From positions 1-64,000 of the forward strand of contig CAIWCC010000206.1 in NCBI GenBank assembly GCA_903911085.1: a stretch of DNA of 64,000 nucleotides, written 5' to 3'. A program made the position numbers and the translations under genes. Source of the stretch: an uncultured Bacteroidales bacterium (lineage in GTDB: Bacteria > Bacteroidota > Bacteroidia > Bacteroidales > Paludibacteraceae). The notes below the pieces were generated by a model. The model did no database searches and was not told the DNA's origin. It saw only the letters and a program-made list of their open reading frames with translations. Shown here piece by piece: positions 25,316 through 63,195 of this stretch. Each line of letters begins with the position of its first letter. The first letter of the stretch is position 1.

Positions 25316-25382
25316 CAAATGTATAGTTTCTAAGGGATTTCAATCATTTAGTATGTTACCATTACTATCAGTTTTGTAACAT
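25316..25382 (-). promoter_or_regulatory. PUL operator and promoter, DUF5703 operon
   Basis: On the minus strand: ATGTTAC (25382-25376), 16 bases, GTAACAT (25359-25353), 29 bases, then the -7 element TACATTTG (25323-25316). The outer arms extend to 8 bp (TATGTTAC/GTAACATA). Half-sites are 21 bp apart, two helical turns, as for AraC-type dimers. The same geometry occurs at both GH29 promoters and at GH3. Confidence 0.75.
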
Positions 25383-25527
25383 AATAGTTTTTTAGTGATA
25401 GAAAGAGTTTAAGTATTTGATTTGGCAAATATTATCAGATGGCTGGCGTTTTGTGTCTAATTGAATGGTGGTAAGCTATTTAAATTTGTTTTGTGTAGCT
25501 GGGATAGAAATATGATGTTCACACTGT

Positions 25528-26649
25528 CTATAAAACCACTATTTTCAATGCAAACCCCCGACAGTTCACATCTATTATGTTTAGCAGGTAAATACCTTTT
25601 TGTATCGATTTTTTTTCAATCGAGAAAGTTGTTTCCCATTCACGCTTAAAGGATGTAATATATTGTCCATTGAGCGTTTGTATAGCAAAATCGAAAGGTG
25701 GACGAGCCGCTTTGGGCATCTCAACAGTAGATTTAGAACTGACAGGATTTGGGTAAAGTAGTGGTTTTGCATTCAAATCTACGGTTTCAGGCACTGAATC
25801 TTGTATGCCATTTAACTGATTTACGGCCGACATACAATTGCCCAAATCATAAAAATCAACTGTTACAAAGTTAGGAGATTTTGCTTTTTCCGACATGCAC
25901 TTTTCAAAACGATTGGTGAGAAAAGTTTTAGAATTAACTATTTCCGCTTTAGTTCTAATGCCTGTTCCAATGGTAGCGTTTACCACAAAATGATTTAGGA
26001 TAAACAAATCGTTGGTGGCGTTTCCACGATTAAAATCAGTAGTAAAATTGTCGGTATTGGTTACCTCGAACGATGTTTCTACAGCATATTTCCATATATA
26101 ATGATACCATTTTTGGCTTGAAGACGCATCTTTTTTGTCAGTAAATACCATTAATCTTTTCCCCGAATCTATCATTGCTTGCAACGTAGGCCATTCGTCG
26201 CTGTCGTTTTTTGTATAAGCCATAGTGAGTAAGTCAGATTTGTCTAACTCACTATGAATTTGGTTGGCAGAAACATTACATTCAAAAATAATGGTAACCA
26301 CCTCATTGGGGTTATGAATTAAGAAATCGTAGATTTCATTCAAATTTTTGCTTAATGGCTGCTTACCCAAAAATGATTTACCATGATAAACAGTTGGGAT
26401 GCCATCTACATCATAAACGTCTATCATTAAGGCACGTACTCCGTCTACCAGTTGTCGTGTAATGCTATAATTTTGATTGGGAAATTTGAAATTGTCTTGT
26501 GCCGAATTAAAAGCATTGTGGGTGGTCAGAAAAGCAATTTCATTGTATTTTTTATCGCAAAGAAGCGACGAATTGTTCCATTGAGGGTATGCATTTGTAA
26601 TAACTGCAAATAAAAAGAGTGTTGCAATATAGTTACGTAGCTGATTCAA
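25528..26649 (-). CDS. PI-PLC X-domain-like phosphodiesterase, T9SS cargo
   Basis: 373 residues; the start is TTG 26649, which begins a good signal peptide (to about NAYPQ) and has no in-frame ATG alternative. TTHNAF (H44) and VYHGKS (H89) with MIDVYD match the two catalytic histidines and acidic residue of phosphatidylinositol-specific phospholipase C-like phosphodiesterases. Residues from about 298 (LLYPNPVSSKS) form a T9SS type A sorting domain. The role in a glycan locus is unclear: it could act on phospholipid, on a GPI-like anchor, or merely be a neighbour. It has its own promoter without the PUL operator. Confidence 0.8.
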   Translation of the reverse strand: MNQLRNYIATLFLFAVITNAYPQWNNSSLLCDKKYNEIAFLTTHNAFNSAQDNFKFPNQNYSITRQLVDGVRALMIDVYDVDGIPTVYHGKSFLGKQPLSKNLNEIYDFLIHNPNEVVTIIFECNVSANQIHSELDKSDLLTMAYTKNDSDEWPTLQAMIDSGKRLMVFTDKKDASSSQKWYHYIWKYAVETSFEVTNTDNFTTDFNRGNATNDLFILNHFVVNATIGTGIRTKAEIVNSKTFLTNRFEKCMSEKAKSPNFVTVDFYDLGNCMSAVNQLNGIQDSVPETVDLNAKPLLYPNPVSSKSTVEMPKAARPPFDFAIQTLNGQYITSFKREWETTFSIEKKSIQKGIYLLNIIDVNCRGFALKIVVL

Positions 26650-26677
26650 TGTAAGTAGGTTTTTGCGATTTGTATTG

Positions 26678-26707
26678 CAAAGGTATAACTAAAAGTTTGA
26701 CTACAAA
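26678..26707 (-). promoter_or_regulatory. Promoter of PI-PLC-like gene
   Basis: On the minus strand TTTG (26707-26704), 18 bases, TACCTTTG (26685-26678). Transcription would start near 26671, about 22 bases before the TTG start codon. No GTWWC pair occurs at the position used by the PUL operators, so this gene appears to be outside that regulon. Confidence 0.6.
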
Positions 26708-26772
26708 ACATTGCTGTGCAGAGTTGAAATTTATTGGTCAAAATGCACTTTTATTTTCTGGATTTACCTCAT

Positions 26773-28023
26773 TTACTTAAGGTTCAAATCAATAATTTCC
26801 ATTCCTGCCAATAAAAATGAGCCCAATACATGTCGGTCGTTGGTAGAGGTGGGGCGGTTTAGGTAGAAGTTAATATCGTCGCTAAAATGAGTGCCAATGC
26901 AAACGCCTTCAATTTCGTTATTGGGTGTAATTTTTGTGAGTAATCCGTTCCAGCCTTTCACAGCACAGGTCCGATAGCTTTTAGGCAACCAGCCACTGTT
27001 TATCCCTTTGGCAATGGAATAGGTAAACATGGCCGAACAGGATGTTTCGTGGTATGATGAATTTACGTTAAGTACCTGACACCACAATCCGTTGGTTTGC
27101 TGCAATTTAGTCAGACTTTCTACGTGGGCTTTGAAGCACGACAATAGCTCCTTCCGCTTTGGATGGTTTTTGGGCAGTACATCCAACACTTCCACCATCG
27201 AAAGTATCATCCAACCGTTTCCGCGCCCCCAGTATTGTTTATTGGGGCGGTTTTCGGTGCAATACCATACATGATGAAATAGTTTGTCGGAGGCGTCAAA
27301 CAAATATTTGTTGTAACTACATACTTGATTTACAGCTTCGTTCATGTAGCGTTGTTCATTGGTGAGTTTCCACATTCTGACTAGAAAAATTACCGCCATA
27401 TAAGCATCGTCCGATTGTACCACTTTGCGTCCGTTATCAATCCTAATCAGGGTTTTGTCGGTCCAGCGTGCTTGAACATTGAAAATGTGGTTCTCGAATT
27501 TATCGATAAATGGTTTCAGCCGTTCGTTTTTGGTTTGTGCATACAAATCCACCACATTGGCTGCCAAACCGCAATACCACAGCTCTTTCATGCTGAAATA
27601 CAGGGGATAGGGCGTTTTGATGCCGGTTTGCTGTTGTTGGGAGAAAAATGAAATAGTCTCAGCAAGAAAATTTATTTTTCGGGTGGAATATTGCTGAATA
27701 TCTTCAGTTGTAAAGAGTAAACCTACGCGGTTCATGCCAAAGCAAACCAGCGAATTTTGATATTCCCACTCGTTGAAATCGCTTGCCAGTTTCACTGACG
27801 TTCCGACCTGAATTTCCTGCAACGATTTGTAAATCTGCCCGTTTGCCCTGTCTTTGAATTCGTAATTTGTCAAGGTTAATATCTTCTGCGAAATAGATTG
27901 TAACACTTGTTTTACCTGCATCGTGTCAACAATCGGACTAGTTTTTTCTTTCGAGAAAACCAGTGCCGGCCATTGTAATGCGGTAAGAATAAAAGCTATA
28001 CAGATGATTGATTTTGAATTCAT
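26773..28023 (-). CDS. GH105-like unsaturated uronyl hydrolase
   Basis: 416 residues, signal peptide to about residue 24. The (alpha/alpha)6 barrel carries VVQSDDAYMAV (D205/D206, the catalytic aspartate region) and YWGRGNGWMILS, the WGRGNGW motif shared by GH105 and GH88. These enzymes hydrate the double bond of unsaturated uronic acid at the end of lyase products, releasing the next sugar. It is clearly different from the two 367-residue GH105 proteins in this window. It starts 10 bases after the end of the YhcG-type gene. It could also act on saturated uronyl residues, as reported for some relatives. Confidence 0.8.
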   Translation of the reverse strand: MNSKSIICIAFILTALQWPALVFSKEKTSPIVDTMQVKQVLQSISQKILTLTNYEFKDRANGQIYKSLQEIQVGTSVKLASDFNEWEYQNSLVCFGMNRVGLLFTTEDIQQYSTRKINFLAETISFFSQQQQTGIKTPYPLYFSMKELWYCGLAANVVDLYAQTKNERLKPFIDKFENHIFNVQARWTDKTLIRIDNGRKVVQSDDAYMAVIFLVRMWKLTNEQRYMNEAVNQVCSYNKYLFDASDKLFHHVWYCTENRPNKQYWGRGNGWMILSMVEVLDVLPKNHPKRKELLSCFKAHVESLTKLQQTNGLWCQVLNVNSSYHETSCSAMFTYSIAKGINSGWLPKSYRTCAVKGWNGLLTKITPNNEIEGVCIGTHFSDDINFYLNRPTSTNDRHVLGSFLLAGMEIIDLNLK

Positions 28024-28033
28024 TATTTTATTA

Positions 28034-29239
28034 TCATTTTTCTAGTTCGTTGCTAATATACTCTTTCAATGTCTCAACGGAAGGTAATTCTACAAGATAT
28101 TTCTGAACAAAGATAGTTTGGTCGAGTCCGCCAGTTGCGTATTTTACCTGAGTGTTTCCTTTTTCAGTACACAATAATAAACCAATTGGGGGATTGTCAT
28201 CAGGTGCCATTACTTCATGTTTGAAATAGTTTAGGTACATATTAAGTTGCGAAGCATGTTCGTGTTTAAACTTATCTATTTTCAATTCAACAACTACGTG
28301 ACATTTCAGTATTCGATGGTAAAACAATAGATCGACAAAGAAATAGTCATTATCAATTAAAATTCTTTTTTGGCGTGCTTCAAAACAAAATCCGTGTCCC
28401 ATTTCCAATAAAAAGCTTTGCAAATTATCGAGAATTGCCTGCTCTAAATCGGTTTCAGTTACCAAAGCTCTTTCATTTAATCCCAAAAACTCCAATGCAA
28501 TGGGGGTATTAATGATGTCTTTAGGCTGTAAACGCACTGCCTTTTGATTTGCCAAATCTGATAACGCTTCTTTGTTTTGTGACAAGCCACTGCGCTCATA
28601 GTAAAGTGAATTAATTTGACGTTCGAGTTCTGAAACAGACCAATTGCCTTTAATGGATTCCATTTCATAAAAAGTGCGCTTAACAAAATCTTCTATTTGA
28701 ATTGTTTTTCTAAGATGTGTATATGATAATTTATTTAAAATGAGATTGATAGGTACTCCTTTGAATTCGGCACTTGCCGAGTGCCGAATTATATTATAAG
28801 ATTCGGCACTTGCTGAGTGCCATTTTTCAACATTCAATTCGGCTGTCGGTATCTGCCGAATCTCATCTTCTGTGTCAATCGTTGATAATTTCCAAATTGA
28901 AAAATCAGTTTCGATATTTGGTAATTGTTTGATGGTATCGAAAGGTAAATGATTGCTTATTTCAGTTCCTAATTGGGGATAAGATTTGTAAAATTGGCGG
29001 AATTCACGAAATCGTCTTTCTGTCAATCCTTTGGTATTCAGTTTTGTCTCCAGATTTTGCAATAATCGCTCACCATATTGAGCTCGGTCATTCCCATTTT
29101 GTTCAAACTCAACAATATAATAACCTATCAGCCAATTGCGAATGGTCAAGCCCGTATTTATTGAGTGGGCTGTACTGTTTTGCAATACTGTTTGAACAGA
29201 TTGAATTTGATTTAACAGAGATTCGAAATCGTTTAACAT
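28034..29239 (-). CDS. YhcG/DUF1016 family PD-(D/E)XK nuclease
   Basis: 401 residues. The N-terminal DUF1016 domain (about 1-115) has INTGLTIRNWLIGYYIVEFEQ; the C-terminal domain has the PD-(D/E)XK fold: ILIDNDYFFVDLLFYHR, with the metal-binding Asp, then CHVVVELKIDKF with the ELK motif. Between them, codons for about residues 125-165 contain three palindromic repeats sharing ATTCGGC and GCCGAAT (28764-28861), giving the repeated peptide HSASAE. The family is usually linked to defence or recombination functions. Its place between GH95 and GH105 inside a PUL is unexpected. Confidence 0.88.
   Translation of the reverse strand: MLNDFESLLNQIQSVQTVLQNSTAHSINTGLTIRNWLIGYYIVEFEQNGNDRAQYGERLLQNLETKLNTKGLTERRFREFRQFYKSYPQLGTEISNHLPFDTIKQLPNIETDFSIWKLSTIDTEDEIRQIPTAELNVEKWHSASAESYNIIRHSASAEFKGVPINLILNKLSYTHLRKTIQIEDFVKRTFYEMESIKGNWSVSELERQINSLYYERSGLSQNKEALSDLANQKAVRLQPKDIINTPIALEFLGLNERALVTETDLEQAILDNLQSFLLEMGHGFCFEARQKRILIDNDYFFVDLLFYHRILKCHVVVELKIDKFKHEHASQLNMYLNYFKHEVMAPDDNPPIGLLLCTEKGNTQVKYATGGLDQTIFVQKYLVELPSVETLKEYISNELEK
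28764..28861. repeat. Three intragenic palindromes in the YhcG gene
   Basis: AATTCGGCACT/AGTGCCGAATT (28764-28790), GGCACT/AGTGCC (28805-28821) and ATTCGGC/GCCGAAT (28837-28861). They share words, lie in the linker between the two protein domains and keep the frame open, like palindromic elements that insert in frame in other bacteria. Confidence 0.7.
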
Positions 29240-29360
29240 AGATGTTTTTTTGTCTGTTTTTGGAAATTATCTTTGTAATCACACAATAATCAAGCATGAA
29301 CTTTAGATAAATCATTCATTATCAAATGCGAAACCGCACATTAACTTTATTGATTACGAG

Positions 29361-29390
29361 TCTAACGTCCAAAATTAGTGCTTTTAATTG
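29361..29390 (-). promoter_or_regulatory. Possible promoter upstream of the YhcG gene
   Basis: On the minus strand TTG (29390-29388), 19 bases, TAATTTTG (29368-29361). The leader to the ATG at 29239 would be about 115 bases. This fits the Bacteroidota consensus but is supported by sequence alone. Confidence 0.4.
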
Positions 29391-29427
29391 AAATCACAAC
29401 TCTGTTTTGACACCTAAAACGTTACTT

Positions 29428-31902
29428 TTATTTCGAAACAAGTGTAATTACTTCTCCCGCTTTGGTGTAAATATCGTACATGTAACTCTTTTTCAGGTTA
29501 AGTCCATTTAATTTTGCCTGAGCCGATATTAACGGTTTTTTGCCTGTTGTAGTTTGATAAAATGGGTTGTTGTTTTCTACTTTTGCTGTTGTTAGTTTTG
29601 GGTTTCCAATCAAAGTCCAGTAAGAACGAATGCGACAATTACCTCCCAATTTTGATTTGATAACCAGTTTTGAAATTCTGCCATTTTTCCATACCATCTC
29701 TGCAATTTCGAAACCACCACGGGCGCGAAGTCCGGTTACACGGCCGTTTGCCCAATTATCGGGCAGGGCAGGTAGCACTTGAATAGCGCCGTCGTGACTT
29801 TGCAGCAGCATTTCGTTCATTCCAGCAGTAAATCCAAAATTCCCGTCGATTTGAAACGGCGGACAAGCATCAAACATGTTGGCATAAGTGCCTCCCTCCT
29901 CAGAATATCCTTGCTTATTTGTATCTTTTACTACCAATTTAATTTGATCAGTCATCAGTTTGTAGGCGTGATTTCCATCTTGCAGGCGCGCCCAAAGGTT
30001 TATTTTCCAGTTCATCGACCAGCCAGTTGAGGGGTCGCCACGCTGTATGAGTGAGTTTTGAGCTGCCTCGAAAAGTTCCGGATTACGATATGGCGAAATT
30101 TGATTGGATGGGAAAAGCCCGTACAGGTGCGACACATGGCGGTGCTTGTCGTTCGGGTTGTCCCAGTCGTGCATCCACTCCTGCAATTGGCTGTGTTGTC
30201 CAATTTGCATTGGGGCAAGTTTTGCCTTTGTATCTTCTATTTTTTTTGCAAATGCAGCATCTGTATTCAGTAATTTTGCAGCTTGTGTGGTAATGGAAAA
30301 CAGGTCGAAAAGCAGTTGGTTGTCCATGGTTGTTCCTGCTGAAATGGATTGGTCGGGATGAACGGCGGGTGCATTTTCGGGTGAAACGGATGGTGCCACC
30401 ACCAGCCAACCATGTTCTGGCTCGGGAGTCAGAAAACTAAGGTAGAATTCCGTTGCGCCTTTCAGAATTGGGTAAATGGATTTCAAATATTCCTTGTTGC
30501 CGTTAAATGCATATTTTTCCCATAAATGTTGGCTCAGCCATGCACCTCCCATTGGCCACATGCCCCAAAACGAACCATCTACGGGTCCACAAATTCGCCA
30601 AATATCGGTGTTGTGATGTAGCATCCAACCGTTGGCGCCATACATATCTGTGGCTGTTTTTTTTCCGGTTTCGGACAGTTCGCGAACCATCTGAATCAAT
30701 GGCTCATTCATTTCGGTGAGGTTAGTCACTTCCGATGGCCAATAGTTCATTTCCAAATTGATATTTACGGTGTATTTGCTGTCCCATGCTGCAAAAAGTT
30801 GGTCGGCCCAAAGCCCTTGCAAATTAGCAGGTTGTCCGCCCGGCTGCGAGGAACTGATGAGCAAATAGCGTCCGAACTGAAAATATAGCGCCGCCAAACC
30901 TGGGTCTTTTCCGTTTCCAAAATCTTTGATTCGCACATCCGTTGTCTTTTTTGCAGCTTTGGTTTGTCCCAAGTTGAGCGAAACACGGTTGAAATATTTC
31001 TGGTAATACGCTGTATGATTGGTCAAAAGCTGTTTGTAATTTTTTGCCGAGGCTTTGTTTAAATAGTTTGCCGCACGCTCTTGGGCATTGGCACTAATGT
31101 CTTTGTAATTGACAAAATTAGTAGCAATAGAAACCAGCAAAGTAACGCTGTTGGCATCAGAAATAGTGAGCCGGTTATTTTGGGCACTCATTTTTCCCCC
31201 TTCGGGAATGGCTTTTAGCACAGCCTGAAAATTCACTTTACCCTTAACGGTTTCATGATCGCTTGTGGTGCCTTCCATTTTTAGCAGATTGTTGGCTTCA
31301 GTGCTTATTTTCACTTCCGAAGGACGATCCAGAGATGCCGAGAAACTGATTTTGCCCGGTTTGTCAGCGGTAAGTCGTATCACGATTACCTGATCGGTGA
31401 ACGACGTAAAAACCTCTCTTCTGAAATTAACGCCATTCAACTGATAAGTAGTTGTGGCAATGGCATTTTCAAGATTCAAGTCGCGATAGTAATTTGTAAA
31501 TTTCTCCTGCCCCACAAAATCCAGTTTCAGATTTCCAACGGTTTGATAGGACATGCCGTGCGATGTTTTGGAAATGAATTTGGCATTGGACAAATCCTGC
31601 GCTTCTTTGTATTTACCCTCAAAAATCAGTTGGCGGATAAGTGCCAGATTCTCTTTGGCGTTTGGGTTGTCGTTGTTATTTGGACTGCCCGACCAAACCG
31701 TGTTTTCGTTGAGCTGAATGCGTTCCTGAGCTGGATTTCCAAAAACCATTGCACCCAGTCGGCCATTGCCCAAAGGCAGCGACTCTTCCCATTCCTGAGC
31801 GGGTTTGTTGTACCAAAGTTTTAAATCGGTCGCATTTACTGAGAAAAGTGCACAAAAGCCAATGCACAAAATAAAACTAAAAAAGAATTTTTTCATTGTC
31901 AT
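29428..31902 (-). CDS. GH95 alpha-L-fucosidase or alpha-L-galactosidase
   Basis: 824 residues; either of two ATGs (31902 or 31896) can start the signal peptide ending near SVNA. The N-terminal beta-sandwich (LKLWYNKPAQEWEESLPLGN) is followed by the (alpha/alpha)6 barrel with NLEMNYWP, PSVSPEN (catalytic Glu), HRHVSHLYGLFP and DGNFG (catalytic Asp). All canonical GH95 residues appear present. GH95 enzymes invert alpha-1,2-L-fucosides; in xylan-targeting loci some act on alpha-L-galactose. Either would fit decorations of complex plant xylan or xyloglucan. It lies downstream of the six-hairpin gene, across a palindrome-containing gap. Confidence 0.92.
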   Translation of the reverse strand: MTMKKFFFSFILCIGFCALFSVNATDLKLWYNKPAQEWEESLPLGNGRLGAMVFGNPAQERIQLNENTVWSGSPNNNDNPNAKENLALIRQLIFEGKYKEAQDLSNAKFISKTSHGMSYQTVGNLKLDFVGQEKFTNYYRDLNLENAIATTTYQLNGVNFRREVFTSFTDQVIVIRLTADKPGKISFSASLDRPSEVKISTEANNLLKMEGTTSDHETVKGKVNFQAVLKAIPEGGKMSAQNNRLTISDANSVTLLVSIATNFVNYKDISANAQERAANYLNKASAKNYKQLLTNHTAYYQKYFNRVSLNLGQTKAAKKTTDVRIKDFGNGKDPGLAALYFQFGRYLLISSSQPGGQPANLQGLWADQLFAAWDSKYTVNINLEMNYWPSEVTNLTEMNEPLIQMVRELSETGKKTATDMYGANGWMLHHNTDIWRICGPVDGSFWGMWPMGGAWLSQHLWEKYAFNGNKEYLKSIYPILKGATEFYLSFLTPEPEHGWLVVAPSVSPENAPAVHPDQSISAGTTMDNQLLFDLFSITTQAAKLLNTDAAFAKKIEDTKAKLAPMQIGQHSQLQEWMHDWDNPNDKHRHVSHLYGLFPSNQISPYRNPELFEAAQNSLIQRGDPSTGWSMNWKINLWARLQDGNHAYKLMTDQIKLVVKDTNKQGYSEEGGTYANMFDACPPFQIDGNFGFTAGMNEMLLQSHDGAIQVLPALPDNWANGRVTGLRARGGFEIAEMVWKNGRISKLVIKSKLGGNCRIRSYWTLIGNPKLTTAKVENNNPFYQTTTGKKPLISAQAKLNGLNLKKSYMYDIYTKAGEVITLVSK

Positions 31903-37734: not shown

Positions 37735-37801
37735 CAAAAATAGATTTTCTATCACTATTCATCTGTTTTAAAAGATACATAGATTGTTGTATTTGTAACC
37801 A
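37735..37801 (-). promoter_or_regulatory. PUL operator and promoter, GH3-GH105 operon
   Basis: On the minus strand TGGTTAC (37801-37795), 16 bases, GTATCTT (37778-37772), 29 bases, -7 element TATTTTTG (37742-37735). Transcription would start near 37728, about 30 bases before the ATG. Here the second half-site is GTATC, so the pair reads better as a direct repeat GTWWC than as an inverted repeat. Confidence 0.72.
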
Positions 37802-37854: not shown

Positions 37855-40800
37855 TTATTCAAATGATACATCTTTTCCTTCAGATTCCATAAATTCGGTA
37901 GGTGTAACACCATAATACAGCCTAAAACGATAGGTAAAATGTGAGTGATTTGCAAATCCGATAGAATATGCAACCTCCGCAATACTCATTTTTTTGTCTT
38001 TAAGCAACTTTTCAGCATATCGAAATTTGAAAATCCTGATATAATCCTGAGCCGATATATTGACTAATTCGTGCATTTTTCGGTTGAGGTGAACGCGACT
38101 TATTCCAACAGACTTGCACAAAAAACTCACATTAAGTTGTTCGTTCGATAAGTTATCAGTCAGCACCTGATTAATACGTTTCATTAATTTATCGTTGTGC
38201 GAAAGTATTTCAATGTCGGGTAATTCCATTTGTTGCTTTTTTTCAAAATGATACTGTAAAGTTCTTCTCATTTCAATAAGCTTATCGATGCGCGTCTTTA
38301 ATAAATCGATATTAAAAGGTTTTATCATATATTCATCTGCACCAGCTGCCAATCCATCTTTTTCGCTCTCGATGGTGTTTTTGGCTGTTAATAAAATAAT
38401 GGGCACATGTGCGGTAATATGATTGTTTCTAACTCTTTTACAAAAAGAAACTCCATCTAGGCCTGGCATCATTACATCGGATATAATTAGATCAGGAGGA
38501 TTTGTAAAAATGGACTTTACCGCCACATCGGCATTAAAACTCTGCTCTATCAAATAGTTTTCTTCCAATTCTTTAGCTAGATAGTTTCGTATTTCATCAT
38601 CATCCTCCACTAAATGAATTGTGGGTTTAGTTTTATGAATTTTCTCCTTTCTTGTGTTTAAATGTTCATTTGCAATGGTTTTATTACTTTCGGGCTGAGC
38701 AATATTTTCATCAATTTCGGAAGACAAAAAATGTTTTCGTCCGAATGGAATGTCGATACAAAAAATGGCACCTTTGCCAACTGGTCGATTATGTGCTTTT
38801 ATGGTTCCGTGATGCAAAGTTACCAACTGGCGACACAAGTGTAAACCTATTCCAGTTCCTGAATTTTTAGGTATAGGTTTCCCACTTTGTATAAATCGGT
38901 CGAAAATACTTTCTATTAAATCTTCTTCAATACCAATGCCCGAGTCGATAACTTCAATCTGGCACAAGGCATTATTGTCGCTGCATACCGAAACTTTCAG
39001 AATGATATCGCTATCAGGTGGCGAAAACTTAAATGCATTGGAGAGTAAATTGATAATCACTTTTTCGAAATGCATTGGGTCAATAAACACATATAGCTTC
39101 TGAAAATCGGAATCAACGGTGAGTTCTATTTGTTTTTCGTCGGTGTAAAACTGAAAATCGGAAGCTAAATTTCGCAAATAGCTCAATAATTCCACTCGCT
39201 GAACCCGTAGTTGGAACAGTCCTTTATCAATTTTACGAACATCCATTATCTGATTTACTAAATTCAGAAGTCGTTGTGCATTTCGATACATCATTTGAAA
39301 CAAATCCCGGTTAAGTTCGTTGGCTTCTTTCAGCAGTCGTTCCAACGGGCTCAATATAAGCGTAATAGGCGTTCTAATTTCGTGAGAAATATTCATAAAA
39401 AACTGCAACTTCATTTCGTTTATTTCTGCCAAATGTTTCAGTTTTTCCCTGTCGGTTTTTTCTTTTTCTTTGGCTTTGATGTATTTGTACACTATTAATA
39501 CAAAGCCGCTTACAATGAGTAGGTAGAGAATTTTCATCCACCAAGTAGCCCACCAAGGAGGCAAAACTCTAACGTTAATTTCGCGCATCTGAACCAAATC
39601 ATTCAAAACTGCTTTCACTTTAAATTTATAATTTCCGTGTGCAAGGTTCGTATAAGTAGCGCTTTTGTCTTTGTTAGGTGGCAGCGATTGCCAGTTTTTG
39701 TCATACCCTTCCATCATGTAATAATACGTTACTTGATCGGAATTGATAAAATTCATAATTTTAAAACGAACTGTAAAGAAACAATCTTTGTATGCCATCG
39801 AAATGTTCTGTGCATCGTTAATATTGGTAGTAATAATGGGTTTACCGCCAGAAAGTTGGTTCACATTTACTGGTTTATTGTACATCAGTAGTTCGGTTAA
39901 AACCAATTGTTCTAATTTTCTATTGTTGGATATTCTGTTAGGATTCAGTTCTACACATCCGTTTATACCACCAAAAAACAAATGCCCATCTGGAGTAATT
40001 GTCATTGCATTACGTTGAAATTCTGGAATTTGAATTCCTTCACTCGCAGTGTAAACGACTGTATTAAAGTTGTTTATATTTATTTTAAATGCTCTGTTAA
40101 ATCCTGATACCCATACACTACCATGCTTATCGTAAACAATAGATGATACTTGAAGTAAATTGAGCTCTGGAGTAGTAATTTTATCCCATTCATTTGCTTT
40201 TTTGTTGAATATATATATTCCCTTATCGGTTCCTATCCATACAGTGTTGTTAACTAGTGTAATGCTTTTTACAGAAATGCCTTTGTTTTTATTCTGCGCA
40301 TATAAAAAATTGCTGAAAACCATATTTTTAAGGTTCAGTTTGGAAATGCCATTTGTAGTACCAGCCCACAAATTGTTTTCATTGTCGGTAAGCAGGCAGT
40401 TTACCCAATTGTTGCAAATATATTTTGAGTTATTTACACTGCCATCTGGTGCTTTAAATGTTGTGAATGTTTCGTTTTTAGTGTCAAATCGGCACAAGCC
40501 ATCGCCGTTTGTAGCGAGCCATAAATAATTGTTATTGTCTTGCGCTATACTCCACAAACGGTCGTTACTCAGCGAATTAGGATTATTCAGTACCCTTTTG
40601 TATTGTTTTTTTATTGTAAGCTTGTTTTTGTCAACACATATCAGCCCATCGTTCCATGTAGCCAGCCATACGTTTTGACTTTTATCTTCAAAAATACTTA
40701 GCACTTTTTTTGTTGGTAAAATTCTTTTGAATTTAGCATTTTTAAATTCGTTGATTGTAGAAATTAGAATGCCATCGCCATCGGTACCAAACCATATTTG

Positions 40801-41874
40801 ATTGTTATTGGCATAAATTGAGTAGACGCACATATCCGAAACTCCTCCCAGCCATGTTTTACAATCAATATTGTAAAATAAACTTTCGGATTTACCCAGC
40901 ATCATCAAGCCTTTATAATTTATGCCACACCAAATATTGTTATCTTTATCAACCAATAACGAGAAAGTTTTATTGATTAGATCGTTAGCCAAATTATTAG
41001 CGGGATTAAATTTTTGTAGTTGATTTTGTTTGTCAATAAAAAAAATACCATTTCCGTCGGTGCTGACGTAAATGGTGCTATCGGGAGCCAAAAATAAATT
41101 GGCTACAGTAAGCCCACGACTATCCGCTATGGTTTCGAAGCTGTTTGTTAGTTTGTTAAAAATGGAAATTCCACCGGTAGTACCAATGTAGACATCTTTA
41201 TTTCTACCTGATGCAATGGCCACTATTTGGTTTTCTACAATGTTGCTGTTGTAGCTTGTAAAATGTTGTGTTCTGTTTCGGGTGGAGTCGTAAATATAAA
41301 TTCCGTTGTTTTCAACAGTAGCATACAAGGTGTTTTGCTTGTCGAAAAATATACGTTTTACAAATTGTGTTGGAATTGATTTTTCTAATTTTGGATCGTT
41401 TTCGAATACATTTTTTTCCGGATTTAGTTTCTTTATTCCTCTTCCAGAAGTAGAAATGAAAAGCTCGTTTTTCGAATTTTGTGCTATATCGGTTACGAAA
41501 AAATCAAAAATTGAGTTGTCGTTGACAAGAACAGGATAAGAGCTGAAATTTTCGGATATTAACGAAAATGACCAAACACCTGAATGCGTTCCTATCCAAA
41601 GTTTCGATTCATTATCGATAAACAATGAAGTTATTAGGTTGTCGGTAAGACCGTTTTCGCATCCATCGCCTATGCCATAATAGGTAAACCTATCTCCATC
41701 AAATTTATTTAACCCATTGTTGGTGGCAATCCACAGAAAACCCCTTTTGTCTTGAATGATTTTGTTAATGCTTGTCCCCGACAAACCATCTTTTGTTGAA
41801 TACTGCCGGTTAAATTGCGCATTGGCAATTTGAAAAAACAACAAAGAGCTTATTAATAGTATTCGTGATTTCAT
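37855..41874 (-). CDS. Hybrid two-component sensor-regulator (HTCS)
   Basis: 1339 residues from ATG 41874; the frame extends to TTG 41919 but a -7 element (41924-41917) overlaps that start. Order: signal peptide (1-19), two seven-bladed Reg_prop propellers in the periplasm (about 25-650, many LWIGT/GI repeats), the YYY domain (690-772), a membrane helix (781-798), HisKA with H831 in NISHEIRTP, HATPase with NLLSNAFKF and NSGTGIG, a receiver with D1133 in ISDVMMPG, and an AraC-type DNA-binding domain (about 1229-1330). HTCS proteins bind oligosaccharides in the periplasm and activate their PUL. It is the only regulator in the window and the natural candidate to bind the GTWWC-N16-GTWWC operators. 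Confidence 0.95.
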   Translation of the reverse strand: MKSRILLISSLLFFQIANAQFNRQYSTKDGLSGTSINKIIQDKRGFLWIATNNGLNKFDGDRFTYYGIGDGCENGLTDNLITSLFIDNESKLWIGTHSGVWSFSLISENFSSYPVLVNDNSIFDFFVTDIAQNSKNELFISTSGRGIKKLNPEKNVFENDPKLEKSIPTQFVKRIFFDKQNTLYATVENNGIYIYDSTRNRTQHFTSYNSNIVENQIVAIASGRNKDVYIGTTGGISIFNKLTNSFETIADSRGLTVANLFLAPDSTIYVSTDGNGIFFIDKQNQLQKFNPANNLANDLINKTFSLLVDKDNNIWCGINYKGLMMLGKSESLFYNIDCKTWLGGVSDMCVYSIYANNNQIWFGTDGDGILISTINEFKNAKFKRILPTKKVLSIFEDKSQNVWLATWNDGLICVDKNKLTIKKQYKRVLNNPNSLSNDRLWSIAQDNNNYLWLATNGDGLCRFDTKNETFTTFKAPDGSVNNSKYICNNWVNCLLTDNENNLWAGTTNGISKLNLKNMVFSNFLYAQNKNKGISVKSITLVNNTVWIGTDKGIYIFNKKANEWDKITTPELNLLQVSSIVYDKHGSVWVSGFNRAFKININNFNTVVYTASEGIQIPEFQRNAMTITPDGHLFFGGINGCVELNPNRISNNRKLEQLVLTELLMYNKPVNVNQLSGGKPIITTNINDAQNISMAYKDCFFTVRFKIMNFINSDQVTYYYMMEGYDKNWQSLPPNKDKSATYTNLAHGNYKFKVKAVLNDLVQMREINVRVLPPWWATWWMKILYLLIVSGFVLIVYKYIKAKEKEKTDREKLKHLAEINEMKLQFFMNISHEIRTPITLILSPLERLLKEANELNRDLFQMMYRNAQRLLNLVNQIMDVRKIDKGLFQLRVQRVELLSYLRNLASDFQFYTDEKQIELTVDSDFQKLYVFIDPMHFEKVIINLLSNAFKFSPPDSDIILKVSVCSDNNALCQIEVIDSGIGIEEDLIESIFDRFIQSGKPIPKNSGTGIGLHLCRQLVTLHHGTIKAHNRPVGKGAIFCIDIPFGRKHFLSSEIDENIAQPESNKTIANEHLNTRKEKIHKTKPTIHLVEDDDEIRNYLAKELEENYLIEQSFNADVAVKSIFTNPPDLIISDVMMPGLDGVSFCKRVRNNHITAHVPIILLTAKNTIESEKDGLAAGADEYMIKPFNIDLLKTRIDKLIEMRRTLQYHFEKKQQMELPDIEILSHNDKLMKRINQVLTDNLSNEQLNVSFLCKSVGISRVHLNRKMHELVNISAQDYIRIFKFRYAEKLLKDKKMSIAEVAYSIGFANHSHFTYRFRLYYGVTPTEFMESEGKDVSFE

Positions 41875-43026: not shown

Positions 43027-43093
43027 CAAAAATAGTTTTTACTGCTCTGAAAACGCTGTTCTATTTTTACCACAAATTGTAATATAGAAACCA
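43027..43093 (-). promoter_or_regulatory. PUL operator (degenerate) and promoter, T9SS protein 1
   Basis: On the minus strand TGGTTTC (43093-43087), 16 bases, GTAAAAA (43070-43064), 29 bases, -7 TATTTTTG (43034-43027). Each half-site differs from GTWWC or its best copies by about one base, but the spacing is exactly that of the strong copies. Confidence 0.5.
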
Positions 43094-43166: not shown

Positions 43167-43233
43167 TTGTTACATGTATGATAAATAAAGTAACAATGCC
43201 AATATTTTTAATGTAGATTATATGTTACTTTTG
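43167..43233 (+). promoter_or_regulatory. PUL operator and promoter, GH29 copy 1
   Basis: TTGTTAC (43167-43173), 16 bases, GTAACAA (43190-43196), 29 bases, -7 TACTTTTG (43226-43233). The leader to ATG 43274 is about 34 bases. The homologous promoter of GH29 copy 2 keeps identical spacing while the middle base of each half-site is swapped. Confidence 0.75.
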
Positions 43234-47923: not shown

Positions 47924-47990
47924 CAAATGTAGGTACATTAAAATTTCCTGCTTGTCTTAATTGTTTCTTGATTTGTGCTAATTGATACAT
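47924..47990 (-). promoter_or_regulatory. PUL operator (degenerate) and promoter, GH10
   Basis: On the minus strand ATGTATC (47990-47984), 16 bases, GAAACAA (47967-47961), 29 bases, -7 TACATTTG (47931-47924). The first half-site fits GTWWC; the second has one mismatch. The leader to ATG 47897 is about 20 bases. Confidence 0.55.
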
Positions 47991-48028: not shown

Positions 48029-48095
48029 ATGGTCAAAATCACATAAATCATGTATCTAATATGATAATGGCAAAAGCAGGGAATAAATATCTTTG
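48029..48095 (+). promoter_or_regulatory. PUL operator (half) and promoter, SusC
   Basis: GTATCTA at 48052-48058 is a good second half-site, 29 bases before the -7 element TATCTTTG (48088-48095). The first position (48029-48035, ATGGTCA) is a poor match, though TGGT is shared with other copies one base out of register. The leader to ATG 48149 is about 47 bases. It lies back to back with the GH10 promoter. Confidence 0.45.
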
Positions 48096-57239: not shown

Positions 57240-58964
57240 ATGAAACATACACTATTCGTTCTTATATTTTTATTGTCGTTAAGTGTTTATTCACAAGACA
57301 GTTACAATTACACTTTATTGACTTATTCGCAAGTTGGCTACGATATGTATATGCCCAAAACGGCCATGTTGCAACATGTTGATTCGAGTTTTTTTAAGTC
57401 GGGTACTACTTTTACATTGCGGCAAATTGCTGATAATAAAAACATACTTACCGGTAAAATTAAATCACTTGGCAAGAAGTGGAAAAAGTTTTGGTGGAAG
57501 GTTGACTTTTCAGGTTGCAAACAAGCGGGTGAATATTACCTGCAAATTAGTTACAAGAAAAACTTGCTTTACGAAAGTAAAAAGTCACTGCCCATTACCA
57601 TTGCCAACAATCTGTTGTGGAACAAAACATGGCAGTCTACAGCCCTGTATCACTTACACTTGCGCGATAGTTTGAGCTATAAACCCGAAGGTGGTTGGAA
57701 AGATTGTGGAAGCACGTTGCAAGAAATTAGCAGCCATATTATTATGCTCAATGCCCTCTGCGATTTGTTGGAGTTAAGCCAGAAGAACTTATCGCCCAAC
57801 AACCAACAGGATATTTATAAACAGCTGGTTATTGGGGCAAATTATGTAGCGCTTTGTCAGGATAAGGCAAAGTCGCTCGGACTTGGCGACGGCGCTGTGG
57901 TGCATGAAGTGAGGCGTAACCTCAAAGTGGTAACGGGAAATGTGGCTAAAACTGCCATGATATTGGCCCGAATTTCCCGATTGATGAAAGAAGTAAACCC
58001 CGAACTGTCGGTACAATACAAGGCGCGTTCCATAAAAGCCTTTAATTGGATTGCAAAAAACGGCCCTATTATTCATTGGGAAGATTCTGATTTTTACGCC
58101 ATTACACATGGGGCACCTTACGGAATGAAAACACCACCCAAGGAATGGATGACCCGCGATTTGGTTATGATGATGTGGGCTTCGGTGGAATTGTATAAAT
58201 GTGGTGAACTGGATTATAAGCAAAATGCCATTGACTACGCCGCCAAAATTATGTCCCGACAAGTTAACAAAGAAAAAGCCGAAGGTGGTTTGTACGGGCA
58301 TTTTTACACTTACGATTCGTTCAATTTTACCGAAAAAGCAAATATCCATTGTGGTGCCTGGGATGCCAATTATAAGGCTTACAATCAGGGAGGACATTTT
58401 CCTCATTATCTGATTCCAATGATTGAGATGATGAATTTATGGCCCGAAAACCAACAGGCTGGTAATTGGAAAAAATGTGTTCGAAATTTTGCGTATCATT
58501 ATTTTTTGCCCGCTACAAACCAAAATCCATTTAAGATATTGCCGGCAGGTTATTATAAAAATGAGGGATTGCTCAATTGGAGTGGTTGGTACCACGGTCA
58601 CAACAAGATTTTTGGTTATGCCGCCGCATTGGCCATGGAGTTTTATCATTTATACAACGACCGTCGGTTTATCGAAATTGCAGTGGGAAATCTACAGTGG
58701 ATAGCGGGACTACATTCGGGCTTTCATAAAAACAACGATAGCTTTTCGGCAAGTATGATAGTTGGCATTGGCAACCGTTCCAAAGCCGACTGGGATACCA
58801 TGCGTGGCACTATAACCAATGGTTTTGACGCCGATGCACAATTCAAACTCACACGCCCAAGCAAAGAAACCGATTTACCTACCGTTTTTGGCGACGAGGG
58901 CGGCATTCATCATCCTGCCGGCTGGGTAAGTGGACTTACGAGATTGTATTTGTACAGCAAGTAG
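57240..58964 (+). CDS. GH9-like glycosidase, divergent active site
   Basis: 574 residues, signal peptide to about VYSQ. An N-terminal Ig-like domain (25-120; YSQVGYDMYMPKTAML is typical of GH9 enzymes with CelD-type N-termini) precedes an (alpha/alpha)6 barrel. Where GH9 cellulases have GGWYDAGD with two catalytic aspartates, this protein has GGWKDCGS (151-158): D155 is kept but the second is S158. The C-terminal end reads DEGGIHHPAGW rather than the usual NEVAIDYNA. It is probably a GH9-family glycosidase with altered chemistry or substrate, or a binding protein. Last gene of the susCD operon. Confidence 0.72.
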   Translation: MKHTLFVLIFLLSLSVYSQDSYNYTLLTYSQVGYDMYMPKTAMLQHVDSSFFKSGTTFTLRQIADNKNILTGKIKSLGKKWKKFWWKVDFSGCKQAGEYYLQISYKKNLLYESKKSLPITIANNLLWNKTWQSTALYHLHLRDSLSYKPEGGWKDCGSTLQEISSHIIMLNALCDLLELSQKNLSPNNQQDIYKQLVIGANYVALCQDKAKSLGLGDGAVVHEVRRNLKVVTGNVAKTAMILARISRLMKEVNPELSVQYKARSIKAFNWIAKNGPIIHWEDSDFYAITHGAPYGMKTPPKEWMTRDLVMMMWASVELYKCGELDYKQNAIDYAAKIMSRQVNKEKAEGGLYGHFYTYDSFNFTEKANIHCGAWDANYKAYNQGGHFPHYLIPMIEMMNLWPENQQAGNWKKCVRNFAYHYFLPATNQNPFKILPAGYYKNEGLLNWSGWYHGHNKIFGYAAALAMEFYHLYNDRRFIEIAVGNLQWIAGLHSGFHKNNDSFSASMIVGIGNRSKADWDTMRGTITNGFDADAQFKLTRPSKETDLPTVFGDEGGIHHPAGWVSGLTRLYLYSK

Positions 58965-59073
58965 ATTGGCTCAAAAATCCGCTTTGCAGTCTGAGTTCAG
59001 GATAAGCAATAAATGAAAAATAGAATATGTGAATAAAATTAGATGATTATCAGGTAGTTCTAATGTCATGTTT

Positions 59074-59101
59074 CGGTGCTTCCGACTTGACGGAAGCACC
59101 G
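59074..59101. terminator. Hairpin after the GH9-like gene
   Basis: CGGTGCTTCCG and CGGAAGCACCG form a perfect 11-bp stem around ACTTGA, about 110 bases after the end of the operon. The T-run is weak (TAATATTC), so it may be a transcript-protecting hairpin or repeat rather than a true terminator. Confidence 0.5.
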
Positions 59102-59595
59102 TAATATTCAATAAACTAAGCATTGCTTATTCCGAACACATGTTTGCCTCAAATATGCATAAAGCTCTTGCAATACAATGCATTACTACTCTCGAAGTTT
59201 AGATTTGAGCACTACAGATTTTATCTTTACTAAGGGTGCATACTTGTATTTTTGAGCGTCATATAGATTTTCTACTTTTTGGATCTCACAGCATCGTATT
59301 TGTATCGCTTCTCCTTTTTTCTTTATCCAAGTGAGGGTTTCAATGGGAGTGAAGCCCTCACTATGTTGAACAAATAAAACCGAAATACATTGCTGCATTT
59401 CGGTTTCTGTTGAAAAAATAGTATTGTAAACTTAAACTGATATAAGACTTTTTTTGTTTGTTTTGATTGTTATACAATGTCAGGATAAATGATGCTAGAT
59501 ACAGCATCTTTTTTTTTTTGAAACTAATACCTACGCTTCAGGTTTCTACTAATCAATTTAATTCTCTCTAATTCTACTTTACCAAATTAAGAAGA

Positions 59596-59720
59596 AAACC
59601 ACAATAGGCACAATAGAAAAGATAAATCAATAATTATAAAGGTCACAATAGACAAATACCTATCGGTATTTTTGATGAAAGCATTGTTTGTATTGTGACC
59701 TATTGATTCTATTGTGGTTT
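59596..59720. repeat. CACAATAG inverted-repeat element, copy B
   Basis: Outer arms AAACCACAATAG (59596-59607) and CTATTGTGGTTT (59709-59720); inner arms AGGTCACAATA (59640-59650) and TATTGTGACCT (59691-59701); both pairs are perfect. The centre has TACCTATCGGTATTT. Related to the shorter element at 32062-32130. Confidence 0.75.
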
Positions 59721-59760
59721 AACTGTTTTCAATTTGTATTTAGTAAAGTAGAATTAGAAT

Positions 59761-60370
59761 TTAGAAAATTACTTTTCTAACTGATGGTTTGCTTCCATTT
59801 TGCATTTACACTGTATAAATGCCTTTGGCACTCAACTTGATTTCCATGGTAGAACTGTTTGCAGTTTTATTTACTACCAATCGGCCCAATGCATCATAAA
59901 TCCTTACAACTGTGGAAGGCGCAATATTTTGCAACATCAATTTTCCATTTGCTATCGCAAAATTTGCATCTACATTCATGTCAATTATTTCATTGCCCGT
60001 AGGTACACGTTGTGCAGTGATAGTAAAACGTGTATTGTTGGTACCAGCATCAGATGTAAAGCTATAATTGGTAGTCATCAAATCGGTTACTGTACCATTT
60101 AATTTATCCAACAACAACAATTTAGACAAGCTTGGTGCTTGTGCTGCATCGGCACTGATAGTGGTAGTGCCGACTGTTTTGGTGTAAATTCCTACTGGGA
60201 AGTTTTGCACTTCGGTCATTGGCAATGCATTGAAACCATAATTTACGCCACCTAATTGAGTGTAAATTTGTGGTTTATCAGTACCAGTACCTACCCATTT
60301 TTCCAAATCCTCACCAATTTGATAAGCAGAGGTTTGATCATTGTCCATAATCAAATTGGTATTATCGATG
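59761..60370 (-). pseudogene. Truncated T9SS-secreted protein
   Basis: The open part encodes about 190 residues of an extracellular beta-rich protein. Near its end is the sorting-domain pattern NIAPSTVVRIYDALGRLVVNK, then KGIYTV, then an in-frame TAA (59806-59808), after which the frame continues MQNGSKPSVRKVIF to a second stop at 59761. That tail is the expected end of a T9SS type A sorting domain, so a stop has arisen inside it. The 5' end is cut off at about 60370 by the hairpin repeat, leaving no start codon or signal peptide. Doubly broken, hence a pseudogene. The original function is not visible. Confidence 0.8.
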
Positions 60371-60698
60371 CCCGCGCCCCACTTCCTTTTTTGCATTGAC
60401 GCAAAAAAGTAAGCAAAAAAACACCTTACCCGCCGCCTACTGCACCCTCTCCTGACCTCTATCCCCCTAACGGGTACTTTCCCCTAAAAGGGAAAGAAAT
60501 AGGACTTTTTTAATATTTGGAGAGGGAAAATAGTAATTGAAGTGTTTGACCTCGTCCAGTGAGCCGAAAAATCAGTCGTTCGTATGCTGAAAACTTTTAA
60601 ACTCGCACCGACGGAATACGTCGGCACTCAAACACAAAAGTTTTCTACGCCTACTTCACTCCATTTTTCGGCTCACTGGACGAGGTCAGTCCAAATTC
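60371..60698 (-). repeat. Dispersed hairpin element, copy 2 (inverted, rearranged)
   Basis: 60371-60420 is the module with TTTTTTGCGTCAATGC (minus strand) and CCCGCGCCCC. 60547-60688 is the hairpin module, flanked by perfect 26-bp inverted repeats (60547-60572 and 60663-60688, TGACCTCGTCCAGTGAGCCG and complement). The hairpin is nearly the same as in copy 1. Between the modules is a stretch with ACGGGTACTTTCCCC-type intergenic words. Confidence 0.82.
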
Positions 60699-60981
60699 AA
60701 TAGCGCAAAATAGATAATGAGTTTTTAATACATAATTGATTTCCTATTACCTAAGCTTCACTAAGAATATTTTTACAAATTAAGAACTCTTAGGAAAAAA
60801 CATAAATGTTTTTTTAGAATAGTCGATTTATTTTAAAATATTTATGTTTTAACGTAGTGTTCTCATAATATAATGATTCAATAACCATAGTGTCCCACGA
60901 AAACAATTGGTATTGTGCCCTAACTAACTTTGTGATTAGTCTTTTATTTTAAATCACAGAATATACTAATCTATATAATAG

Positions 60982-62085
60982 CTATTTTATTTTCAATTTC
61001 AACACTTCGCTACCAGCCAATAAAAATGCACCAGTTCCATACACCTGACTACTTTCAGCCTTAAAATTCTTGCGAGGGTCTGCGCCAATTGGCTGACACC
61101 AACCCATGTAACCTTCGGGTTGAATTAATCCGTTTAGGCCGATCCACGCTTTTTTTACTACAGGAAGAAATTCATTTTTATCTAAAATACCATTATTTAT
61201 ACCCCAAGCTAACGCATAAGTATAAAATCCCGAACCACTGGATTCACCACCAGGGAATGATGCTGGGTCGAGTAAACTGGCACGCCACAGACCATCTTCT
61301 TGCTGAAGTGATGCTACTCGTTTAGACATTTCTTTAAAAAGGTCAATGTAAAAGCTGCGTGTTTTGTGTTCTTTTGGTAATTCGGTAATCATTAAAGCTA
61401 AACCTCCTATTACCCAGCCGTTTCCTCTCGACCAGAATATTTTTTGTCCGTTTTTTTCACGTCGATCTGTAGGATTATCTTTAATTACGTAGTATAAATC
61501 GCGTGCAAATAAGTGTTCATTTTTATCGAACAATAAATCGTAACATTCGCGGAAAAGTACATCACATTTTTCCATGTACTTTGGGTTTTTTGTAGCTGTT
61601 GATAGTTTTGCCAACGCTGTAGGTCCCATAAAAAGTGCATCGCACCACCACCATGTAATTACCTCAACACCTGTAACTTTGTGTGGTTGTACCAAAAAGT
61701 TGTCCATCATTTTTTGGAATGGTTCAAGCATTTTTGGGTCTTTTTTTATCCGATATACATCAATATAGGTTTGTGCAATGGCATGATCGTCGGCATGCAT
61801 GGTGCGTGGACCTGGTTTCCACTCGTTTTTCTCGCCCATGGAAATCATTGCGTCCAAATATACTTTGTTTTTTGTAGTTTTATAGGCTGCCGAAATTCCT
61901 GCATAAAACGCTCCATTTGTCCAGTCCCACAGGTCATATTGTGGATGAGTCAACTGCCATTTGGCAGCATCGAGCATGGCTTTTTTAATAACTTTTGGTT
62001 TAAAAACATCATCGTTTTTAGTCATTGCACTTAATCCTGCAAACATTGCTATACAAAGCAACAAGGATACTCCTTTGATTCTCAT
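60982..62085 (-). CDS. GH105 unsaturated uronyl hydrolase, copy 2
   Basis: 367 residues, the same length as the protein at 33842 and alike along its whole length, including HADDHAI, WWWCDALFM and FWSRGNGWV with the catalytic aspartates. The reading frame is intact, so it may still be functional. Upstream of it, instead of an intact GH3 gene, are only remnants of GH3 and HTCS, and no TAnnTTTG with operator is seen. It is part of a decayed duplicate of the 33.8-45 kb segment. Confidence 0.9.
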   Translation of the reverse strand: MRIKGVSLLLCIAMFAGLSAMTKNDDVFKPKVIKKAMLDAAKWQLTHPQYDLWDWTNGAFYAGISAAYKTTKNKVYLDAMISMGEKNEWKPGPRTMHADDHAIAQTYIDVYRIKKDPKMLEPFQKMMDNFLVQPHKVTGVEVITWWWCDALFMGPTALAKLSTATKNPKYMEKCDVLFRECYDLLFDKNEHLFARDLYYVIKDNPTDRREKNGQKIFWSRGNGWVIGGLALMITELPKEHKTRSFYIDLFKEMSKRVASLQQEDGLWRASLLDPASFPGGESSGSGFYTYALAWGINNGILDKNEFLPVVKKAWIGLNGLIQPEGYMGWCQPIGADPRKNFKAESSQVYGTGAFLLAGSEVLKLKIK

Positions 62086-62110
62086 TTTTGTTGTTTTTTT
62101 ATAGATTTAA

Positions 62111-62599
62111 TTATTTGATTTCGATGTTACATTATTTTTTGTCATTCTCGGTACTCCCATCCACTAAAATTTTATAATCGCCAGGCTGCATGTCCATTTT
62201 CGATTTAACGTCTATTTCGACATTAAAACTCTGTTCCATTTGATAGGATTCGACCAACTCTAATGCAAGATTTGTTCTTATTTCGTCATTGGCTCCCACT
62301 AAATGAAGTGTGGCTATCGTAATTTTGAATTTTCTTTTATTTATATTGTTCTGAGCTAATCGGCTCATATATAATTAGTTTGTAGCTGTTTTTGGTTCTG
62401 CATTGTATTCTGCATTTTTCGGAAGGTTATATTGATTCCGTCCGAAAGGAATATCGATACAAAAAATGGCTTCTACGCCATCGAGGCGGTTATGTGCAAT
62501 TTGGGTTCCGTGCTTTTGAGTTACCAACTGGCGACACAAATATAAGTTTTTTCCGGTTCCTGAATCTTTAAAAAGAGTATGCCCACTTTGAATCCACAA
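62111..62599 (-). pseudogene. Chimeric remnant of HTCS and GH3 genes
   Basis: Read on the minus strand, 62599-62375 matches HTCS residues of about 995-1060 (IQSG, LCRQLVT, AIFCIDIPFGR). The ATP-lid motif is decayed (NSGTGIG has become DSGTGKN). After stops, 62330-62212 matches the receiver start (HLV..DEIR, EQSFN, VKS). It then runs in frame into the last 30 or so codons of GH3 (KMDMQPGDYKILVDGS), where the original stop region also carries an extra TAA. The order is that of the intact HTCS, GH3 and GH105 genes, with about 3.4 kb deleted between the receiver and the GH3 tail. Confidence 0.85.
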
Positions 62600-63128
62600 A
62601 ATTAAGACAATTTGTTCATATAAAAAAGCAATCTTGCATTAATTCTCTTTATCAAATTTAAAAATAATCATCTATTGTACATGAAAAAAATATAGTTTAG
62701 TAATGTTTTGAAATTGAATAATTTAATTTGTACGCGACTAATGATAAACGGACTGACCTCGTCCGGTGAGCCGAAAAACAAGTGAGATAGGCGGTTAAAA
62801 ATTGTCCATGTTTGAGTTCCGACGTATTTCGTCGGAATGAGTTTGGACGATTTGAGCCTATCGAGCGCAAGTTTTTCGAGCGAAGTGGGCGAAGTCTTGA
62901 CTTTTTTTGCTTACTTTTTTGCGTCAAGGCAAAAAAGTGAGTGGGGCGCGGGGCTAGCCCCGATTAAAAATAGTACATTATTTTGTTTCAGTTACTTACA
63001 TAATTATTATTGCGATTGCATTTATTTTTTTACAATAAGTTGTATTATTGAACCCAAAATATATTTTTTCAAACCATAATATATTTTTTTACCTTCATCA
63101 GCGAAAAATGTGTTTACAAATAGATTTT
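62600..63128. other. Non-coding region with hairpin element
   Basis: About 530 bases before the GH29 copy 2 operator. Mostly filled by dispersed hairpin element copy 3. An open frame at 62837-63079 runs through the repeat and is treated as spurious. Confidence 0.6.
62752..62978 (+). repeat. Dispersed hairpin element, copy 3
   Basis: Same order as copy 1: ACTGACCTCGTCC, a long hairpin, AGCGAAGTGGGCGAAGTCTTG, GCTTACTTTTTTGC with GCAAAAAAGTGAG, GGGGCTAGCCCC, and a final TACATTA. The hairpin stem has changed on both sides compared with copy 1: AAATTGTCC/GGACGATTT in place of GAAAACTTTT/AAAAGTTTTC, ATAGGC/GCCTAT in place of GTAGGC/GCCTAC, and TTCCGACG/CGTCGGAA. Confidence 0.85.
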
Positions 63129-63195
63129 TTGTAACAGGCACTAAAAAATAGGTTACAATGCTAATAACTATTGTTTATATTATAAGTTACTTTTG
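63129..63195 (+). promoter_or_regulatory. PUL operator and promoter, GH29 copy 2
   Basis: TTGTAAC (63129-63135), 16 bases, GTTACAA (63152-63158), 29 bases, -7 TACTTTTG (63188-63195). Spacing is identical to GH29 copy 1 although the bases between have diverged, which argues that the site is still under selection. Confidence 0.75.

Follow-up and report, generated by a model that had tools for sequence, protein, structure and literature searches.

A tandem operator at a fixed distance from the -7 promoter element, most likely a hybrid two-component system binding site, in a Bacteroidales polysaccharide-utilization locus

The closest described counterparts of the element reported here are the operators of hybrid two-component systems (HTCSs) in Bacteroides thetaiotaomicron, whose motifs are direct repeats averaging 21 bp that lie upstream of genes of polysaccharide-utilization loci (PULs) (Ravcheev et al. 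2013, PMC3878776). The available text of that study reports that close HTCS paralogues share a motif and a joint regulon (HTCS_Rgu-1, BT4111/BT4124), and that the regulons include distant operons. The HTCSs BT0366 and BT1754 were located near PULs by chromatin immunoprecipitation and sequencing, binding directly at loci under their control, distant ones included; the relevant passages give no motif or geometry (PMC3404733). In a further system, XylS binds the Pm promoter at two 15-bp direct repeats, in each of which box A lies on the 5' side and box B on the 3' side (PMC5481539). Here we describe a related element in a 64,000-nucleotide stretch (the window; contig C206) from the genome of an uncultured Bacteroidales bacterium of the Paludibacteraceae (6.25 Mb, 269 contigs). 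The window carries a PUL with SusC/SusD, glycoside hydrolase (GH) family GH10, GH3, GH29, GH95 and GH88, and DUF5703 genes, and one HTCS gene (37855..41874, minus strand; Reg_prop propeller, Y_Y_Y, HisKA, HATPase_c, receiver and HTH_18 domains). Going by their sequence, we consider it likely that the sites are HTCS operators with tandem half-sites, at which a bound dimer would take the place of the -33 contact and recruit sigma-ABfr polymerase.

The pattern GTWWC-N16-GTWWC-N31-TAnnTTTG occurs exactly four times on the two strands of the window and in none of 200 first-order Markov shuffles of it, and a chance origin of the four sites is rejected on this ground. They precede the DUF5703 gene (match at 25380, minus strand; operator and -7 element 25316..25382), the GH3 gene (37799, minus; 37735..37801), GH29 copy 1 (43169, plus; 43167..43233) and GH29 copy 2 (63131, plus; 63129..63195). 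An earlier note on this DNA had claimed a shared exact geometry at these four promoters, which is borne out; its 29-base spacing to TAnnTTTG was counted from the end of a 7-mer and becomes 31 when counted from GTWWC. Three sites carry one mismatch (0.07 expected): one before the gene for type IX secretion system (T9SS)-type protein 1 (43091, minus; 43027..43093), one before GH10 (47988, minus; 47924..47990), and one at 5445 (minus) within another open reading frame (ORF; 4436-6388), which is probably due to chance. Two mismatches give three sites (0.96 expected) and three mismatches 14 (10.8 expected); the SusC site (48031, plus; 48029..48095) belongs to this last group and so lacks significance by the earlier pattern alone.

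Genome-wide scans used two models, R1 from four sites and R2 from 11, all of this genome. At E < 0.01, R1 gave seven matches in the genome itself, including the four sites on which it was trained, and two across the other 47 genomes of the genus; the remaining 26 of 33 R1 matches stood at E 0.375 or worse. The new full-length R1 sites lie before a GH106 gene (C15:8523), a GH10 gene (C15:17048) and a GH3 gene (C169:5944) whose product is 67% identical to the window GH3. R2 gave 16 matches at E < 0.01 on six contigs (five each on C206 and C169, two each on C15 and C13, one each on C63 and C65), including its 11 training sites. Fifteen lie outside ATG-initiated ORFs of at least 150 residues and 36-162 bases before one; the sixteenth is the GH10 site, which sits in the 5' extension of its ORF (probable start 47897). 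The genes that follow encode GH106, DUF5703, two GH29 (copy 2 being counted by its identity to copy 1), two GH3, two GH10, SusC, GH2, MFS_2, a leucine-rich repeat protein, two proteins of the DUF6383 type (of which one was searched), a protein outside the search, and a GH59-like protein that falls short of Pfam's cut-off. Of the C169 sites, two end in TAATTTTA, and TAnnTTTG is missing from one site on C13. The proposal of a seven-promoter regulon thus survives as a shared regulon and fails in its limitation to seven promoters of one locus, since five further contigs hold matches. On C169, similar tandem T9SS-type genes follow the near-identical operators at L101:2617 and L101:5410, both ending in TAATTTTA; one of these genes matches DUF6383.

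Such similarity could reflect mostly the common descent of duplicated promoters under little selection. The two GH29 copies are indeed duplicates, as are, by their first residues, the two C169 DUF6383-type genes with near-identical operators. Against this, the sites stand before unrelated genes (GH106, GH10, GH3, GH2, major facilitator superfamily (MFS) and SusC), GH29 copy 2 retains both GTWAC halves despite W bases that differ from those of copy 1, and the geometry recurs in other families of Bacteroidales. We therefore regard descent as an improbable explanation.

The architecture was derived from nine sites: the four exact window sites, C15:8523, C15:17048, C169:5944, the C13 SusC site and the C169 MFS site. 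In their matrix, GTWACA is conserved in both halves, and a second box follows each (about GATA and AATGRT, respectively). Column similarity as a direct repeat (19 columns) peaks at an offset of 21 (3.76) and does not exceed 1.0 at any of 12 other offsets. Each site would accordingly be a 21-bp tandem repeat of a half-site composed of box A (GTWACA), five bases and box B (about RATR). The AraC-type geometry with a 21-bp period suggested previously is upheld by this peak and by the same architecture in published HTCS motifs. An inverted repeat would place copies of box B at mirror positions, and these hold 0.0-0.3 bits in 12 sites; over the same sites, the mean is 0.26 bits for the 30 columns that precede the first half and 0.18 bits for random columns, with two of the 30 reaching 0.7. 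Taken alone, the nine core columns favor an inverted repeat (3.13, as a sum of the columns) over a direct repeat (2.75), and the inverted score over 15 columns is 3.5. The tandem reading therefore rests on box B and on precedent, and the core columns account for the inverted appearance in the earlier note. Since box B comes after each half and has no mirror copy upstream, we reject the inverted repeat and consider the inverted look of the halves probably incidental.

Palindrome-like halves might instead point to a different regulator that binds as a dimer, for example the CRP-like Cur (BT4338), whose consensus TATGTT-N4-AACATA (PMC11501099) has TGTT/AACA-like halves resembling those found here; the fit of the core columns to an inverted repeat agrees with this. 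However, Cur halves are 4 bases apart rather than 16, and the window contains no exact Cur match. The best match lies at the second half of the GH3 site and deviates at two positions; nine other places found at up to three mismatches have three each, one of them in the DUF5703 site. Moreover, the strong sites accompany a class of HTCS DNA-binding domain, and a Cur-type regulator is very improbable. The tandem operator resembles XylS/Pm more closely, with A-B direct repeats, a dimer of the AraC/XylS type and a proximal repeat beside RNA polymerase. It differs in its boxes (TGCA/GGTA six bases apart in XylS, GTWACA/RATR five apart here) and in the promoter, which has a -10 element at Pm and a sigma-ABfr -7 element here (PMC5481539).

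Scored against 465,092 positions with the nine-site matrix, the weaker window sites separate. GH10 scores 15.8 (15 positions equally high) and is a good fifth site, SusC scores 11.7 (17 positions) and is a fair, probable operator, and T9SS1, at 4.9 (32 positions), remains a weak, operator-like site; by way of comparison, 2.9 is the highest score in the 400 bp before the YhcG gene. In leave-one-out scoring, at most 10 positions were as high for seven of the nine sites, with 24 for GH29 copy 2 and 23 for the C169 MFS site. The phosphatidylinositol-specific phospholipase C (PI-PLC)-like and HTCS genes show no operator in the 400 bp upstream (best scores -12.1 and -2.8), as had been stated before.

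According to the text of PMC7366714, promoters of the sigma-ABfr type have TAnnTTTG at -7 and TTTG near -33, with the -33 element not detected in one other member of the Bacteroidetes. TTTG was sought at spacers of 17-22 upstream of the -7 element in the seven operator promoters and in those of the PI-PLC-like gene and the second GH3 gene. It is absent from all seven operator promoters, in contrast to the operator-free promoter of the PI-PLC-like gene, TTTG-N18-TACCTTTG (26678..26707, minus). Measured back from the end of the -7 element, the two box A halves start at 65 and 44 bases, and the promoter-proximal box B2 ends 21 bp upstream of TAnnTTTG, at the -33 position. With box B2 in this position and TTTG lacking in seven promoters, a bound dimer probably replaces the -33 contact. 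The predicted binder is a dimer of an HTCS response-regulator/AraC-type domain, which would recruit sigma-ABfr RNA polymerase in a class II-like manner; the arrangement suggests AraC/XylS-like activation. The position of box B2 would also suit an element intrinsic to the promoter (UP-like or a variant -33) that involves no regulator. We rate this lowest among the explanations weighed, given the upstream position of the box A halves, which are sequence-specific, and the confinement of strong matches to few genes and genomes.

Turning to the regulator, 14 places in the genome match the DNA-binding domain of the window HTCS at E <= 1e-10. Only one, on C13, is close (74% identical in the domain; the next is 37%). 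The C13 HTCS is 57% identical to the window HTCS overall, and both contain the stretches SRVHLNRKM and SHFTYRFR, which we take as the recognition helices. The SusC promoter beside the C13 HTCS bears the same kind of operator. Assignment to the window HTCS by itself, as the earlier note had it, is therefore unsupported, and what stands is an HTCS operator predicted to bind the window HTCS, its C13 paralogue, or both. C15, C169, C63 and C65 hold none of the 14 domain matches, so the sites there would be controlled in trans, as far as the contigs tell. Between the C13 HTCS and the divergent gene (L017, about 14720-14870), we also observed a 21-bp repeat that lacks TAnnTTTG at the usual minus-strand place. 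The receiver loop motif is AHVP in the window HTCS and SHIP in the C13 paralogue; most HTCSs are described as having S/CHIP (PMC11253607), and AHVP may weaken the inhibitory contact between receiver and DNA-binding domain in the window HTCS.

Alternatively, the sites could belong to one HTCS only, the window promoters being a target in cis or in trans and not both. The identical SRVHLNRKM and SHFTYRFR stretches are compatible with this, as is the presence of the operator at the C13 SusC promoter and on C15 and C169, the latter two without any domain match. In addition, an alpha-galactosidase of genome G004 that shares 90.5% identity with that of C169 lies one gene away from a C13-type HTCS (86% identical). 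On the other hand, the window HTCS stands among five of the 16 matches, which is the usual cis arrangement, and no feature was seen that separates two classes of site. Exclusive use by one HTCS thus appears rather unlikely, although it is the strongest of the alternatives. The G004 gene order also suggested that C13 and C169 are parts of one broken locus; the intervening G004 gene was found at neither contig end, and this idea is unproven.

Distribution across the genus largely follows the regulator. A DNA-binding domain of at least 74% identity occurs in three of 48 genomes (G000, G004 and G067), and R2 matches at E <= 1e-5 occur only in those three (Fisher 6e-5); at E <= 4e-4 they occur in all three and in one of the 45 others, G002 (Fisher 2e-4), with both cut-offs picked after viewing the list and R2 built from this genome. 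This co-occurrence favors an HTCS operator, and part of the agreement between domain and operator is shared ancestry of the loci. At the C169 MFS gene, the spacing is kept in G004 and G067; an intergenic alignment of these loci is of little use because gene order differs. The close domain of G067 lies in an HTCS fragment at a contig start (L198, G067:C68), with one TAA in an otherwise open frame. G002 has two matches at E <= 4e-4; two G002 sites of the same geometry (L103:10426 and L104:9667, both minus, on one contig) precede a SusC-like gene and a GH106-like/DUF5703-like operon.

Several observations, in addition to the fit of the core columns, weigh against an HTCS operator of this kind. 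Beyond the choice of cut-offs and the home-built model, R2 matches at E < 0.01 occur in nine of the 45 genomes without a close domain, and the best domain in G002 is only 37% identical. Some matches in such genomes may be sites of other HTCSs; an HTCS domain with 42% identity is found some 450 bases from the match at G071:C31:28632. For the leucine-rich repeat gene downstream of the C63 site, a role in glycan use is not obvious. In each genome, just 107 or 150 of the thousands of candidates from the first look were scored in the genome scans. Within the window, the genome-wide check that recovered 16 matches on six contigs gave the SusC site only E = 1, and T9SS1 is absent from the 55 R2 matches listed. 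Finally, promoters with an operator are not the only ones to lack TTTG, since both TTTG and operator are missing at the TATATTTG that precedes the second GH3 gene (53491).

On balance, the operator is most likely an HTCS operator. A 21-bp tandem repeat, an HTCS gene in the locus, sites before PUL genes including SusC, and conservation with orthologous regulators (three of three genomes, at a threshold picked afterwards) are all present, and the proximal half lies over the -33/-35 region as at class II activator sites. The analysis shows sequence, geometry, conservation, co-occurrence with the DNA-binding domain and absence of TTTG directly, whereas binding, activation, dependence on phosphorylation and the identity of the acting HTCS are inferred. 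The kind of operator is already known, because the published Bacteroides HTCS motifs have this form (PMC3878776): a tandem repeat of about 21 bp at PUL genes, common to close paralogues. Unlike the present analysis, the text on those motifs gives neither a fixed distance to the -7 element nor the motif letters, and a fixed distance is likewise unstated in the texts on HTCS operators and XylS, leaving aside logos, supplements and subscription papers.

This fixed distance across families is the part worth pursuing. Sixteen stretches from nine HTCS loci in relatives were covered, 523 kb with the two strands added together. In them, pairs of TGTAAC before TAnnTTTG peaked in the register of the window sites, cell (15, 31) of 713 spacing combinations, with 4 of 23 matches; judged by eye, three of the genes there encode SusC and the fourth an MFS transporter. 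When that cell was fixed beforehand and ten more HTCS loci from nine order-level genomes were taken (18 stretches), it received 6 of 47 matches and again ranked first. The genes at those six (by eye, two SusC, an MFS transporter, and GH43-like, esterase-like and mannonate-dehydratase-like) point to xylan. Combined, TGTAAC has 10 matches in the cell, two of which (L023 and L210) are not independent, being near-identical and from one genus (g24); the other 179 letter permutations have at most two each. A first control set of 12 loci gave six matches because it held loci fetched for model matches (L195, L103, L104 and L196 one each, L197 two; none in the 13 others of 18). Weak model matches had been the reason for fetching several of these 13 as well, so no control region is fully neutral; the letter permutations and the other 712 cells are the better controls.

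Elsewhere in the window, the "decayed duplicate" of the earlier note does not hold: GH29 copy 2 is intact (616 residues, 87.5% identical to copy 1), and the decayed-looking part is an adjoining HTCS/GH3-like remnant. That part (62100-62640) lies between the second GH88 gene and GH29 copy 2, and its three-frame translation resembles, by eye, pieces of an HTCS kinase/receiver and a GH3 C-terminus. Similar noncoding stretches at 60547-60692 and 62753-62900, which read for example cctcgtcc(a/g)gtgagccgaaaaa, lie on either side of the duplicated part (by eye) and are possibly a repeat used in the duplication. A YhcG/DUF1016 PDDEXK nuclease gene (28034-29239, minus) sits inside the locus. A search of the genome's contigs for related loci returned one distant locus only.

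HTCSs are a main control of glycan use in Bacteroidales, yet for many of them no operator is defined; 20 of the 36 B. thetaiotaomicron HTCSs had no predicted motif in 2013 (PMC3878776). Tentatively, and with somewhat less than even confidence, we propose that HTCS control across Bacteroidales follows a fixed promoter grammar, in which A-B half-sites at 21 bp are locked 31 bases from TAnnTTTG, box B2 replaces the -33 element and HTCS clades differ only in box letters, and that two paralogous HTCSs here share one operator that ties together gene clusters on six contigs. The operator is useful for mapping regulated sugar-degradation genes. If the rigid operator-to-promoter geometry is true, HTCS targets would be predictable and readable from any genome, clusters without a regulator of their own would become assignable, and HTCS activation at sigma-ABfr promoters would be open to a direct mutational test.

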